Source: Methanocalculus natronophilus (lineage in GTDB: Archaea > Halobacteriota > Methanomicrobia > Methanomicrobiales > Methanocorpusculaceae). From it: DNA of 64,000 nucleotides. The position numbers and the translations under genes are program-made. The notes beneath the pieces were generated by a model, which was given only the letters and a program-made list of their open reading frames with translations, ran no database searches and was not told where the DNA came from. How positions within the stretch are numbered: position 1 is the first letter of the stretch; each line of letters opens with the position of its first letter. The DNA is taken from assembly GCF_038751955.1 (NCBI RefSeq), contig NZ_JBCEXH010000004.1, positions 62,001 through 126,000 of the forward strand, read 5' to 3'. Of this stretch, positions 15,065 to 33,531 are shown piece after piece.

Positions 15065-17662
15065 ATGTCGTCACCCGAGGATCTCCAAAAGACCTATGAT
15101 TATACCGAAGTCGAGCGGCGCTGGCTCGATCTCTGGCAGGATGAAGATTTTTATTTTGACTGGAATTCGGATAAACCCCGCTACATCATCGATACTCCTC
15201 CCCCCTACCCGACCGGCCGCCTCCATATCGGGCATGCCCTGAACTGGGTATACATGGATATTGTTGCCCGGTATAAACGGATGCGGGGCTACAATGTGAT
15301 GTTTCCGCAAGGGTGGGACTGCCACGGACTCCCAACCGAGGTGAAAGTCGAGGAGATCCATGGGATCACGAAAAATGACGTGCCACGTGATGAGTTCAGG
15401 GAGATGTGCCGGGCACTGACACGGGAGAATATCGAGACGATGCGCAACTCCATCCGGGTGATGGGATTCTCGGTGGACTGGAGCTCGGAATATATCACCA
15501 TGGATGAGAGCTACTACCGCCTCACCCAGGAGTCGTTTCTCAGGATGCTTGAGAACGGCTATATCTACCAGTCAGAGCACCCGGTCAACTTCTGCACCAG
15601 GTGCGAGACCGCAATTGCGTTTGCCGAAGTCGCCTACTCTGATAATGTCACCCGCCTCAACTACTTTGACTTCGACGGCCTTGAGATTGCAACCACGCGC
15701 CCAGAACTCCTCGCAGCGTGTGTGGCAGTCGCCGTGCACCCGGACGATACCCGCTACCGCGATCTGGTTGGCAACCATCTGACGGTTCCGATCTTTACGT
15801 ATCCTGTCCCGGTGGTCGCAGATGAGGCGGTCGATCCGGCATTTGGATCCGGTGCGGTGATGATCTGCACCTTCGGTGACAGGCAGGATGTCGTCTGGTG
15901 GAAGACCCACAATCTCGATCTCAGGCCTGCAATTGACCAGCAGGGTGTGATGACGTCGATCTGCGGATCATATGCCGGGATGACGGCATCGGAATGCAGA
16001 AACGCCATCCTCTCGGCCATGAAGGATCAGGGTATCCTGATCCGGCAGGAGGAACTTCCCCAGCGTGTCGGAACATGCTGGCGCTGCGGAACCCCAATTG
16101 AGATCCTCTCTGCCCGGCAATGGTTTGTCAAAGTGCAGGCTGATGAGATAACCAGGTCTGCACGCGAGATAACGTGGTATCCGGAACATATGCTGACCCG
16201 CCTCCTGAACTGGACACAACAGATGGAGTGGGACTGGTGTATCTCCCGCCAGCGCCTCTTTGCAACACCTATCCCGGTCTGGTTCTGTCTCGACTGCGGG
16301 CAGATGGTTCTTCCGGATGCGCAGGACCTCCCCATTGACCCGACGATCGACTCTCCGAAGAATCCCTGTGCGGAATGCGGATCGACCTCCTTTAAAGGAG
16401 AGACCGATGTCCTTGATACCTGGATGGATTCATCCATCTCACCACTTGCCGTCTGCAGGTGGGATGGCAGAAAGACGCCTGATACCTATCCCACCCAGCT
16501 CCGCCCCCAGGGCCATGACATCATCCGGACATGGGCCTTCTACACCATCCTCAGGTCAGTTGCACTCACCGGGAAAAAACCATGGGATGCGATCATGATC
16601 AACGGGATGGTGCTTGGTGAAGACGGGTTCAAGATGTCCAAATCAAGGAACAATGTCATCACCCCGGACGAACTGATCGACCGGCACGGGGTGGACGCGC
16701 TCCGCCAGTGGGCAGCAGCAGGCGGGGCAACCGGATCTGACATCACCTTCAGCTGGAACGATGTCGTTGCTGCCTCGCGGTTCCAGACAAAGATGTGGAA
16801 TATCGTCCGGTTCTCCCTGCTCCAGATTAGAAAAGATGATACACATCCTGCGGATGCTCCATCCGAACTTGCGGATCGCTGGCTCCTGTCCCGGCTCTCA
16901 GAAACCCTTGCCGAAGTGACCGATGCCCTTGATAACTACCAGTATGACCGTGGGCTGCGAGCCATCCGTGACTTTGCCTGGTCTTCACTTGCAGACAACT
17001 ATCTTGAACTGGTCAAGGGCAGGCTCTATTCTGATCTCCCCTCACGTGGTGGTGCGGTCTACACCCTTCGCCTGACGCTGGATGCACTCTGCCGGATGAT
17101 CGCGCCCTATACTCCGTTCTTCGCATCCGAATGCTATCATCATCTCACCGGGAACCGGGTGATTGATCAGTCGTGGCCTGAGATCCCACTGGATGATGCC
17201 ACATCCCTCCAGGATGGTGATCTGCTCGTCTCGATCGTTTCGCTTCTCAGGAAATACAAGCACGATGCCGGACTGGCCCTGAATGCTCCACTTGGTCATG
17301 TGACAGTCTATACTCCGGGCCGTTCTATCAATGATGGTGGTGATGCCGGGAGAACGACCAATGCGGAGATCGATTGGCGATCAACCGAACCGCGTCTTGA
17401 CCGCGTGCTCTCGGATGTCACCTTCAATATGGGGATCATCGGCCCCGCCTTCAGAAAAGATGCAGGCGCCGTGATGGCAGCAATCAGGTCACTTCCACCG
17501 GAAACACTTGAAGCAGGAGTCAGTTCGGTTGAGATTGCGGGATCACCACGCGAGATTCCGGAGGGTGCATATACCCCGGTATTCTCCTATGCAATTGAGG
17601 GGGAAGAGGTGGATCTCCTTACGATCCCGGATGTGGTTCTCGCAATCCGCAGACGCGCCTGA
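15065..17662 (+). CDS. valS: Valyl-tRNA synthetase
   Basis: A class I synthetase, 865 residues, attaching valine to tRNA-Val. The HIGH motif is '[13 protein letters not shown]' (about residue 53) and KMSKS is '[10 protein letters not shown]' (about residue 522). The CP1 editing domain lies between, and two CxxC zinc-type pairs are visible ('CWRCGTP', 'CLDCGQM', 'CAECGS'), as in archaeal ValRS. The anticodon-binding domain follows, with a short C terminus. Its last 44 bases overlap the 3' end of the convergent tmk gene. Confidence 0.97.
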
Positions 17663-18236
17663 TCTCGTCTGCCACAAAGGAGGCGATCACCTCCATTTTT
17701 TCTTCTGCATCAATGAGCAGAAACCGCGCGGGATCTGACTCTGCGCGTGCAAGATACTCTTTCTGGACAGCGGCAAGCACTTCTTCACGCTCGAAATGCT
17801 CCAGTGCCTCTGCTGATCCGAGCCGCTCAAGAGCCCGGTCTACAGGGAGAACGAGGAGGAATGTCAGATCCGGGGTGATTGACCATCCCCTGTGCAGTGC
17901 GGCAAGCCACTCTCCTGGATCGTCAAGTATGCCAGCGAGTGTCACCTGCTGGTAGGCAAACCGTGAATCAGTAAACCGATCTGAGATCACGATCTTCTCC
18001 TCAGAAAGAGCTGGCAGCACAACCGTCTTCAGGTGTACTGCATGATCGGCGACAAAGAGCAGGGCTTCTGCTATCGGGTCGGTCTCTTCTGCAATCACCC
18101 TGCGGACCGCTTCCCCGATCCAGGTTGCACCGGGCTCCCGCGTGAAGACGCAGTCTATATCGGCAAGCCTGGTTTTGAGCGACTCAATCAACGTGCTCTT
18201 CCCGGATCCATCAATTCCCTCAATTGTTATCAGCAG
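17619..18236 (-). CDS. tmk: Thymidylate kinase, non-AUG/GUG/UUG start
   Basis: dTMP kinase makes dTDP for DNA synthesis. The P-loop '[12 protein letters not shown]', 'FTREPGATW', '[12 protein letters not shown]' and a lid region are all present, for about 205 residues. The P-loop is in frame upstream of the first usable TTG (18191). Between the preceding in-frame TGA and the P-loop the only near-cognate starts are ATT (18239) and CTG (18236 or 18233), placed 5-8 nt after GGAGGGG. The gene therefore seems to start at CTG or ATT. It overlaps the end of the HisA-like gene by 7 nt and valS tail-to-tail. Confidence 0.93.
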
Positions 18237-18901
18237 AATCTTCCCCTCCGTACATGGTCAGGCTCCACACCTCCGGTATGAATGGCAGTCGCAAGAATCG
18301 CGCCATCATATCCGGCATCTGCAAGCATCTCAAGATCACGTGTATCGCGGACACCCCCGCCATAGATGAGAGGGAGATCGGTTGCGGATCGGATCTCGCA
18401 GGCCTTTTCAGGTGTGATCCCTGCTCTCCCGCCGACTGCGGTGATATTGAGGTAGATGCAGCCTGCAAACCCCAATTCCTCTGCGCGTGCCAGGATGGCT
18501 GCCGGATCTTCTCCTCCGGGTACAACGAACCCCTCCCTGACATCGACACTCAGGTATCTCCCGGGAAAACCACAGAGATTGCTTCCGGCAGTCTCTGTTC
18601 CAACGACATTTTCGATAAATGGCGCATCAAGCATATCGTCTGGTCCCCTGCATCCACGGTCAAGATAGCAGCGGGAGATGAGATCACCAAGGCCAAGGAC
18701 AAGTGCGTCATGCGATCCTCTTCCCTCGATCCGGTCAAGATCTGCAATATATACAGACTTTGGACGGATCGAACTGATATATTCTCGCGGTTCGGCAGAT
18801 TTTGCCAGCCCCCAGTCAAGAGGGGCATATTCCGACCGTCTTCCAGCTTTTCCGTGCACCACCATGCCGGACTTGAGATCTATTGCACAAATGAGCTCCA
18901 T
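18230..18901 (-). CDS. HisA/HisF-related TIM-barrel protein
   Basis: A 223-residue TIM barrel beginning 'MELICAIDLKSGMVVHGKAG', like HisA (Asp8-type residue in 'AIDLKSG'), and ending in a phosphate-binding loop 'LPLIYGGGVRDTRDLEML' and 'DGAILATAIHTG'. It differs from true HisA in the middle and is shorter, so I call it a HisA homologue of unknown substrate rather than the histidine enzyme. It is divergent from mfnB with 43 bp between start codons, and both are small TIM-barrel enzymes, so a link to methanofuran or another C1 cofactor is possible. An upstream ATG at 18913 is also in frame. Confidence 0.82.
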   Translation of the reverse strand: MELICAIDLKSGMVVHGKAGRRSEYAPLDWGLAKSAEPREYISSIRPKSVYIADLDRIEGRGSHDALVLGLGDLISRCYLDRGCRGPDDMLDAPFIENVVGTETAGSNLCGFPGRYLSVDVREGFVVPGGEDPAAILARAEELGFAGCIYLNITAVGGRAGITPEKACEIRSATDLPLIYGGGVRDTRDLEMLADAGYDGAILATAIHTGGVEPDHVRRGRFC

Positions 18902-18944
18902 CGTAGAACGCAATCACTATTATCATTTGAGATCATTAAGTTCT

Positions 18945-31690: not shown

Positions 31691-31720
31691 TCATCTTATC
31701 CTTTTTATTTAGTGCAGTTA

Positions 31721-31827
31721 CCCGCCTTAACTCAGACTGGTAGAGTGCGCGGCTGTAGTAAGATTCTCGCCTGCGGGCGAACTGCGCGGCTACCGCGATG
31801 TCCCCGGTTCGACTCCGGGAGGCGGGA
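31721..31827 (+). tRNA. tRNA-Tyr (GTA) with intron
   Basis: Acceptor CCCGCCT (31721-31727) pairs with AGGCGGG (31820-31826), discriminator A. C1-G72 is the archaeal/eukaryal tyrosine identity pair. The T arm is CCCGG-TTCGACT-CCGGG. The anticodon GTA is at 31755-31757. A 33-nt intron (about 31759-31791) sits after G37, the canonical archaeal position; it repeats GCGCGGCT from the exon stem, giving a bulge-helix-bulge for splicing. CCA is not encoded. tRNA-Asp follows 13 nt later in the same transcript. Confidence 0.93.
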
Positions 31828-31840
31828 TCAGTATTCACGT

Positions 31841-31913
31841 GCCCAGATAGTGTAGTGGCCTATCATGATGCCCTGTCACGGCATCGACTCGGATTCGAAT
31901 TCCGATCTGGGCG
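31841..31913 (+). tRNA. tRNA-Asp (GTC)
   Basis: Acceptor GCCCAGA (31841-31847) pairs with TCTGGGC (31906-31912), discriminator G, as expected for tRNA-Asp. The anticodon stem GATGCC/GGCATC closes loop CTGTCAC with anticodon GTC. The T arm has TTCGAAT. No intron and no encoded CCA. A T-rich stretch follows and probably ends the transcript. Confidence 0.95.
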
Positions 31914-31982
31914 TACCAACTTCTTTTGCTGACGCTTCACGTGATACAATGCTTTATCTTTTCATACCGCCAATAGACTGGT

Positions 31983-33531
31983 ATGCCTACGGCAAAAGCT
32001 ACTGTGGGGAATTGCTTTCTTTGTTGAAAGCAAGTCGCCAAAGAGAGTAACTGTTTTTGACACCACCCTCAGGGATGGTGAACAGACACCGGGTGTATCA
32101 TTCACCTATGAACAGAAACTGGATATTGCACGCATCCTCTCAGAGGTTGGCGTTCATGCAATCGAGGCTGGTTTCCCCTCTTCCTCAGACCAGGAGAGGC
32201 TGACGGTCAAAAGTATTGCAGCTGAGGGCTTCGACGCCTCAATCTGCGGTCTCTCCCGCTCACGGGTAGAGGATGTCAACACCTGCCTTGACTGCGATGT
32301 CGATATGGTGCATGTCTTCATTCCGACATCAGATATCCAGCGGGAGAATACCATCAGGAAGAGCCGTGAAGAGGTTCTCAGAATGACCGGCGAGATCGTC
32401 GGGTATGTCCGCGATCACCTGGACGCCTGCATGTTCTCTGCGATGGATGCAACCAGAACTGATCTTCCATACTTAATCGAGGTCCTGAAAACCGCAAGCG
32501 ATGCTGGTGCAACAGTCGTCAACATCCCAGATACTGTCGGCGTGTATACGCCGAATAAGATGCAGGCACTGATCTCAGCACTGGCAGAAGAGATCTCCAT
32601 CCCAATTGATATCCACTGCCACAATGACTTCGGCCTTGCTGTTGCAAACACCACAACAGCCGTTGAAGCCGGTGCATCACAGGTGCAGGTGACGGTCAAT
32701 GGTATTGGGGAGCGGGCAGGAAATGCCGATATCGCCCAGACCGTGATGATCCTTGAGTCTGTCCACGGTATCAGCACAGGCATTGAGACAACCCGTCTTG
32801 TCGAAATGTCACGCCTCGTCTCCCGGTATTCGGGGATACCGATTGTTCCCATCCAGCCGGTGGTCGGTGACAATGCGTTTGCGCATGAATCAGGCATCCA
32901 TTCGCATGGAATCATCGCAAACTCACAGACATTTGAGCCGGGGATCATGACTCCCGAGATGGTCGGCCACCGCAGGCGTCTGGCGCTTGGCAAACATGTC
33001 GGAAGGCATGCGGTTCGCCAGATGCTCTCGCTGGTTCATATCAATCCCTCTGACGCCGAACTGGATGAGATTGTTGAGCGGATCAAGACGATCTCGTCAC
33101 GGGGCAGGCGTGTGACTGATCACGATCTCTACGCGATTGCTGAGGATGTCATGGATATCCGGGCTGTCCAGAAGACCATTGAGCTCCGTGACATTGCGGT
33201 GATGTGCGGGAATCATAGTATTCCAACAGCCAGTGTCCGGGCGATGGTTGATGGTATCGAGAAGGTGGCAAGCGCCATTGGAAACGGCCCTGTCGATGCT
33301 GCGGTAAAGGCTGTCCTCAATGTGATGCCAATCGGCATCCAGCTCAAGGACTTCCGGATTGAGGCGATCAGCGGTGGTACCGATGCCATCGGCCATGTGA
33401 CCATTACGGTCGAGGATCAGCAGGGGCGAACCTATGATGCAAGTTCATCCGGAGATGATATCGTGATGGCATCAGCCGAGGCGATGATCAATGCGATCAA
33501 TCTCCTCCAGTTTACCAGGGACACACCCTGA
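31983..33531 (+). CDS. leuA: 2-isopropylmalate synthase (LeuA/citramalate synthase family), apparent 5' frameshift
   Basis: A DRE-TIM metallolyase that condenses acetyl-CoA with a 2-oxo acid. 'VFDTTLRDGEQTPGV' begins the barrel, the metal-binding 'DIHCHNDFGLA' and 'NGIGERAGNAD' follow, and a LeuA regulatory domain ends the protein. The main frame has no ATG, GTG or TTG between its upstream stop (near 31951) and 32305, which is well inside the barrel. An ATG at 31983 in another frame reads 'MPTAKATVG' and joins 'IAFFVESKSPKRVTVF' if one G of GGGG (32006-32009) is skipped. Either the gene is frameshifted or it starts at a rare codon. Isopropylmalate or citramalate synthase cannot be separated by eye. 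Confidence 0.85.

Follow-up and report, generated by a model that had tools for sequence, protein, structure and literature searches.

The thymidylate kinase (dTMP kinase) gene tmk of the methane-producing archaeon Methanocalculus natronophilus lies on the minus strand of a 64,000-nucleotide stretch of contig NZ_JBCEXH010000004.1 (the window, to which all positions refer), and its reading frame together with the alignment of its relatives indicates that it is very probably translated from a CUG codon whose first base is at 18236. The CUG start is most likely a stable, genus-wide rarity, that is, a conserved feature rather than a sequencing error. It sits behind a Shine-Dalgarno site and overlaps the end of an upstream gene related to HisA and HisF (hereafter HisA-like). 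The features concerned are the following.

17619..18236, minus strand: dTMP kinase gene (tmk) read from CTG, 205 amino acids plus stop, based on profile matches and the alignment of relatives.
17619-17621, minus strand: TAA, stop codon of tmk.
18234..18236, minus strand: CTG (CUG), proposed start of tmk, homologous to ATG, GTG or TTG in the order and to ATG in the outgroups.
18237..18239, minus strand: ATT codon, rejected as the tmk start, replaced by GTT or CTT in 3 of 8 Methanocalculus genomes.
18233, minus strand: second CTG of the tmk frame.
18245..18249, minus strand: Shine-Dalgarno core GGAGG, also within Arg-Arg-Gly codons of the HisA-like gene.
18230..18913, minus strand: HisA/HisF-related gene upstream of tmk, 18913 being the first TTG of its open reading frame.
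18230..18232, minus strand: TGA, stop codon of the HisA-like gene, which shares bases with codons 2-3 of tmk.
18258..18260, minus strand: TGA in the tmk frame, upstream of the gene, setting the limit for possible starts.
18189..18191, minus strand: first TTG of the tmk frame, just past the P-loop; a start there would delete the phosphate-binding loop.

By its profile matches the product is a dTMP kinase, and catalysis on dTMP is predicted for it. The protein (TMK) matches TIGR00041 at 135.1 bits (cut-off 83.25) and PF02223 at 131.5 bits (cut-off 27). Its P-loop, GIDGSGKST, is of the GxDGxGKS/T type and stands directly behind the N-terminal beta strand, and the alignment with solved thymidylate kinases begins at residue 1. 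A search of the genome with PF02223 returned this gene as the sole match and a whole-genome search with the TMK protein itself likewise gave a single match; no second dTMP kinase copy able to relieve tmk was found in the whole genome with PF02223.

The frame leaves little room for a conventional start. After the upstream TGA the codons read CCA TGT ACG GAG GGG AAG ATT CTG CTG ATA ACA ATT GAG and continue GGA ATT GAT GGA TCC GGG AAG AGC ACG TTG, with no ATG, GTG or TTG between this TGA and the P-loop; a canonical start compatible with the conserved protein is absent. A preliminary description of this DNA had placed the P-loop upstream of the first TTG (18191-18189), which the open reading frame bears out, and directly after an in-frame stop; the stop is there, but six codons separate the TGA from ATT. 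It had also offered ATT, CTG and CTG as the only available codons. All three are present, but the ACG at 18251, upstream of most of the Shine-Dalgarno site, is near-cognate as well. The spacing it had called right holds: GGAGG precedes ATT by 5 nt, the first CTG by 8 nt and the second by 11 nt. Translation could instead begin at the TTG at 18191, which is the first canonical start of the frame, with the P-loop region left untranslated; such a protein would lose the loop kept by all relatives and covered by the dTMP kinase profiles, and a Shine-Dalgarno site is missing at the normal distance ahead of the TTG, so that this start is extremely improbable.

The start region was compared across 131 genomes of the order, made up of 8 Methanocalculus genomes, further members of the family, the 30 best-scoring matches from the order, and 80 genomes spanning its genera which were chosen by hand, not at random, from the 219 of 232 genomes with a tmk match. 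The pair CTG CTG is invariant in all eight Methanocalculus genomes, two of which belong to the named isolates M. taiwanensis and M. chunghsingensis. The genome containing the window is a 143-contig draft, in which a sequencing or assembly error might have produced the CTG; the same arrangement is shared by all 8 genomes of the genus, isolates included, and an error is therefore refuted, its probability being practically negligible. The preliminary description had named, as what would refute it, a base difference restoring ATG, GTG or TTG in resequenced DNA, and seven further genomes also read CTG; the codon is thus kept in relatives, as it had proposed to check.

Across the order, the position of the first CTG is occupied by NTG in 119 of the 131 genomes (TTG 44, GTG 28, ATG 28, CTG 19). 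The sister genus g2, for example, has TTG in 22 genomes, GTG in 2 and ATG in 1. As canonical starts occupy this position in relatives, the first CTG is the start by homology. In 20 outgroup genomes the nearest tmk start is ATG (19) or GTG (1); in 9 of these it stands just as far from the P-loop as here. The 12 genomes without NTG, which were left out of the start-codon tables, comprise ten with ATG and one with GTG one codon upstream, and one with ACG. The ACG was read in L099 (genome G170), a single draft metagenome assembly whose open frame lacks any canonical start, and may be either a genuine ACG start or an assembly error. Further, G129, a 99% complete genome of the order, gave no tmk match at E 0.001 and may have a thymidylate kinase of another kind or a very divergent one.

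The eleven genomes with a start one codon upstream are informative in two respects. At the position of the first CTG they carry GTC (10) or GCC (1), and their HisA-like gene ends in Trp-Ser or Trp-Pro, not in Cys; NTG is hence kept as a start and not for the sake of the Cys codon of the HisA-like gene. They also bear on the ATT at 18239, which the preliminary description had named beside CTG as a possible start. AUU is a known rare start, as in bacterial infC, and here it lies 5 nt from GGAGG, at the very codon where these 11 of 131 genomes begin. In them, however, that codon is ATG or GTG. Within Methanocalculus it is ATT in five genomes, CTT in two and GTT in one, and neither CTT nor GTT is a known start. 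The codon is not conserved within the genus, on which ground it was ruled out, and translation from AUU is very unlikely. Of the earlier proposal, the non-canonical start thus stands, at the first CTG, and the ATT does not.

Translation from the second CTG (18233) is another reading, and it is improbable. This codon is also CTG in all eight Methanocalculus genomes, and its first base is also a site at which only C occurs. Across the order, however, it is a Leu codon (CTG, TTA, CTA, CTC, CTT or TTG) following the NTG start, and its spacing from GGAGG is the longer 11 nt. It could further be supposed that tmk has no separate start and that a HisA-like/TMK fusion arises by -1 frameshifting over the overlap, since the two frames overlap and no stop interrupts the HisA-like frame before its TGA. 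Sister lineages and outgroups, though, have ATG or GTG starts at the equivalent position, TTC TGC TGA holds no slippery run, and a fusion would leave the strong Shine-Dalgarno site, placed at start spacing, without a function. No support for a fusion was found, and it is highly improbable. The first CTG accordingly remains the preferred start of tmk.

CTG starts at this site are not confined to Methanocalculus. They recur in seven genera of five families (f1, f2, f3, f5 and f6), in the proportions g1 8/8, g3 1/1, g10 2/12, g13 1/1, g16 3/3, g17 1/1 and g24 3/3, and in 15 of these 19 genomes the upstream open frame has no ATG, GTG or TTG.

The choice of start codon appears to be linked to the overlapping gene. 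The HisA-like gene closes with the codons TTC TGC TGA (Phe, Cys, stop), which are shifted by one base against ATT CTG CTG A, and the third base of the Phe codon (TTY) also serves as the first base of the tmk start. As ATG or GTG would turn this Phe into Leu, only CTG and TTG are silent here. The same restriction applies to the boxes TTN, TAN and TGN in general, where a purine in the third position alters the residue or creates a stop. When the overlapped codon belongs to these boxes, the tmk start is CTG or TTG in 54 genomes and ATG or GTG in 7; with four-fold boxes, CTG or TTG starts number 8 and ATG or GTG starts 36 (Fisher p 1.4e-13, counting genomes as independent, which they are not). Taken as genus-level majorities, with one vote per genus and class, the counts become 6/4 against 3/15 (p 0.035). 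These tests left out the 14 rows in other boxes along with the 12 non-NTG rows. The upstream HisA-like gene therefore restricts the tmk start codon, and from these alignments we infer that the overlap would largely explain the odd start. The upstream stop overlaps the tmk start in 107 of the 119 NTG genomes and all 19 CTG starts are among these 107; the 12 NTG genomes without the overlap have no CTG start. ATG is relatively commoner without the overlap (6/12 vs 22/107, p 0.03, uncorrected for kinship).

The strength of the Shine-Dalgarno site varies with the start codon as well. The anti-Shine-Dalgarno sequence, GGATCACCTCCT, comes from the 16S genes of five relatives, because the 16S gene of the genome of the window was searched for and not found. 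Mean duplex energies are -12.0 kcal/mol for CTG, -11.1 for TTG, -10.4 for GTG and -8.6 for ATG, and the CTG-start genomes hence have the strongest average duplex among the four groups. In the window, the TGA at 18230-18232 overlaps the tmk start region and GGAGG (18245-18249) lies inside the upstream gene, a layout of coupled pairs. An overlapping stop combined with a strong Shine-Dalgarno site suggests that translation of tmk is coupled to that of the HisA-like gene. Ribosomes finishing the HisA-like protein would come to a halt only a few bases from the CUG; the strong site would let terminating ribosomes re-initiate there, or would recruit new small subunits, and the initiator Met-tRNA would decode the CUG despite the poor codon. 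The arrangement in the DNA is best read as termination-reinitiation at a poor codon with the aid of a strong Shine-Dalgarno site. The preliminary description had expected weak translation and possibly a limited dTTP supply; low TMK output, however, is not inferable from the codon alone, because this start belongs to the group with the strongest Shine-Dalgarno sites and a stop overlaps it.

Several observations weigh against parts of this account. Four of the 19 CTG genomes carry ATG or GTG in frame seven codons upstream of the CTG, before the Shine-Dalgarno core, and the CTG start is therefore less certain in those four. The difference in Shine-Dalgarno strength between CTG and TTG genomes is not significant (p 0.12). 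With regard to the overlap, five of the 19 CTG genomes (L078, L093, L111, L113 and L133) have a four-fold box at the overlapped codon, where ATG would be silent, and among the ten genus-level restrictive-box cases g27, g30 and g40 contradict the rule and g36 is split. For the Phe of the HisA-like gene TTG is as silent as CTG, so that the overlap alone does not explain the fixation of CTG, and in 388 kb sampled from this genome the share of TTC among Phe codons is 0.48. Lastly, a scan for CTG starts over 290 predicted genes, in 387,736 of the 2,003,496 bases of the genome, found no general CTG excess behind Shine-Dalgarno sites (7/56 for CTG, 8/44 for CTC); a CTG start is hence not a habit of the genome, though the scan is insensitive, tmk itself coming only sixth by coding score.

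The C of the CTG itself seems to be kept. There are 47 two-fold pyrimidine codons, 25 in the HisA-like gene and 22 in tmk, whose residue is invariant in the eight Methanocalculus genomes, of which 31 are mixed, 14 are all T and two are all C. Both all-C codons belong to the closing pair of sense codons of the HisA-like gene, and their third bases are the first bases of the tmk CTG pair. A silent C-to-T change would yield UUG, as in the sister genus, and is not seen in any of the eight. This pattern in eight related genomes suggests that the CTG pair is under selection in the tmk frame. A further step, tentative and rather doubtful, is that selection in Methanocalculus maintains the CUG as the set-point of dTMP kinase.

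The arrangement has both likenesses to and differences from known systems. Overlapping stop/start pairs of the ATGA, GTGA or TTGA type are associated with termination-reinitiation. As in these, the TGA of the HisA-like gene overlaps the tmk start region, 4 nt past the first base of the start, and the upstream gene houses the Shine-Dalgarno site. Unlike them, the tmk start shares its bases with the final two sense codons of the HisA-like gene instead of with the stop, its first base being a third codon position of that gene. The infC-type AUU starts share with tmk a rare start on an essential gene; they differ in that AUU is not conserved here, and TMK is not known to act in start-codon discrimination in a way that would give infC-like feedback.

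The nearest parallel is the rare prokaryotic CUG start, which shares with tmk the use as a start of an NUG other than AUG, GUG or UUG (Belinky, Rogozin, Koonin 2017, PMC5622118). In that study, switches to CUG were counted in 2 of 61,358 AUG, 1 of 5,080 GUG and 1 of 2,468 UUG ancestors, and weaker starts were found to tend toward stronger Shine-Dalgarno sites (PMC5622118); the Shine-Dalgarno energies at tmk follow the same trend. Whereas such switches are very rare there, the tmk CUG is fixed in the Methanocalculus genomes read and recurrent in seven genera of the order. Since CUG switches are so rare (PMC5622118), a CUG shared by a genus and found in seven genera is notable, yet it is of a known kind. 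In the literature on archaeal, CUG and non-canonical starts, the titles and the openings of abstracts held nothing on this tmk gene.

Some further observations concern the neighbourhood and other candidate starts. At its 3' end tmk meets a convergent gene (15065-17662, plus strand), which is probably valyl-tRNA synthetase-like, in a tail-to-tail overlap of 44 bases (17619-17662). In contig C2 of the same genome, L157:5963-6496, presumably a HEAT-repeat-like gene, has a CTG 9 nt behind AGGAGG and directly after TGA CGT, and an ATG eight codons downstream of the CTG. Its relative L250 also has CTG, and L251 has GTG at the same place; this is possibly a second CTG start in the genome.

The gene scan was topped by a gene at 31983-33531 (plus strand), which is putatively of the leuA type (2-isopropylmalate synthase-like) by its conserved DTTLRDGEQ region, and which has 120 codons without ATG, GTG or TTG past the upstream stop. 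A TATA-like stretch is followed by the ATG at 31983, which opens a 14-codon open reading frame in the -1 frame relative to the leuA-type gene; it ends TTT CTT TGT TGA (32016-32027), and the leuA frame reads through the same bases. The order yielded 77 distinct copies and paralogues. In 66 of them TTCTT stands in the leuA frame, placing CTT in the frame of the short open reading frame, and 11 lack TTCTT in register. The short frame has an in-frame ATG in all 66 of the former. Within the stretch of 30 codons that leads up to the conserved motif, ATG, GTG and TTG are all missing from the leuA frame in 28 of these 66, and ATG is missing in 41. Many genomes of family f6 have ATG or TTG 18 codons before the motif, where the Methanocalculus copies have CTG (5/7) or CCG (2/7). 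This putative leucine-pathway gene may be expressed by way of a +1 frameshift at a Leu codon, of re-initiation after a leader peptide, or of a CUG start (CTG 32002). By title, none of the papers found on programmed or ribosomal frameshifting with isopropylmalate synthase dealt with this leuA case. Just before tRNA-Asp (31840-31914), the region at about 31720-31827 (plus strand) resembles by eye an intron-bearing tRNA gene; ARAGORN, at the settings used, made no tRNA call there.

Prokaryotic CUG starts are rare and readily mistaken for annotation errors. For example, a gene finder that admits only ATG, GTG and TTG would truncate the Methanocalculus TMK behind its P-loop. The order-wide series at one homologous site, in which the overlapped codon and the Shine-Dalgarno site vary, amounts to a natural experiment on how far archaea tolerate poor starts and on how far overlapping frames dictate them. 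If the CUG is indeed kept as a set-point, the order would hold a natural AUG/GUG/UUG/CUG series at a single start site, tuned by the overlapping gene and by the strength of the Shine-Dalgarno site.

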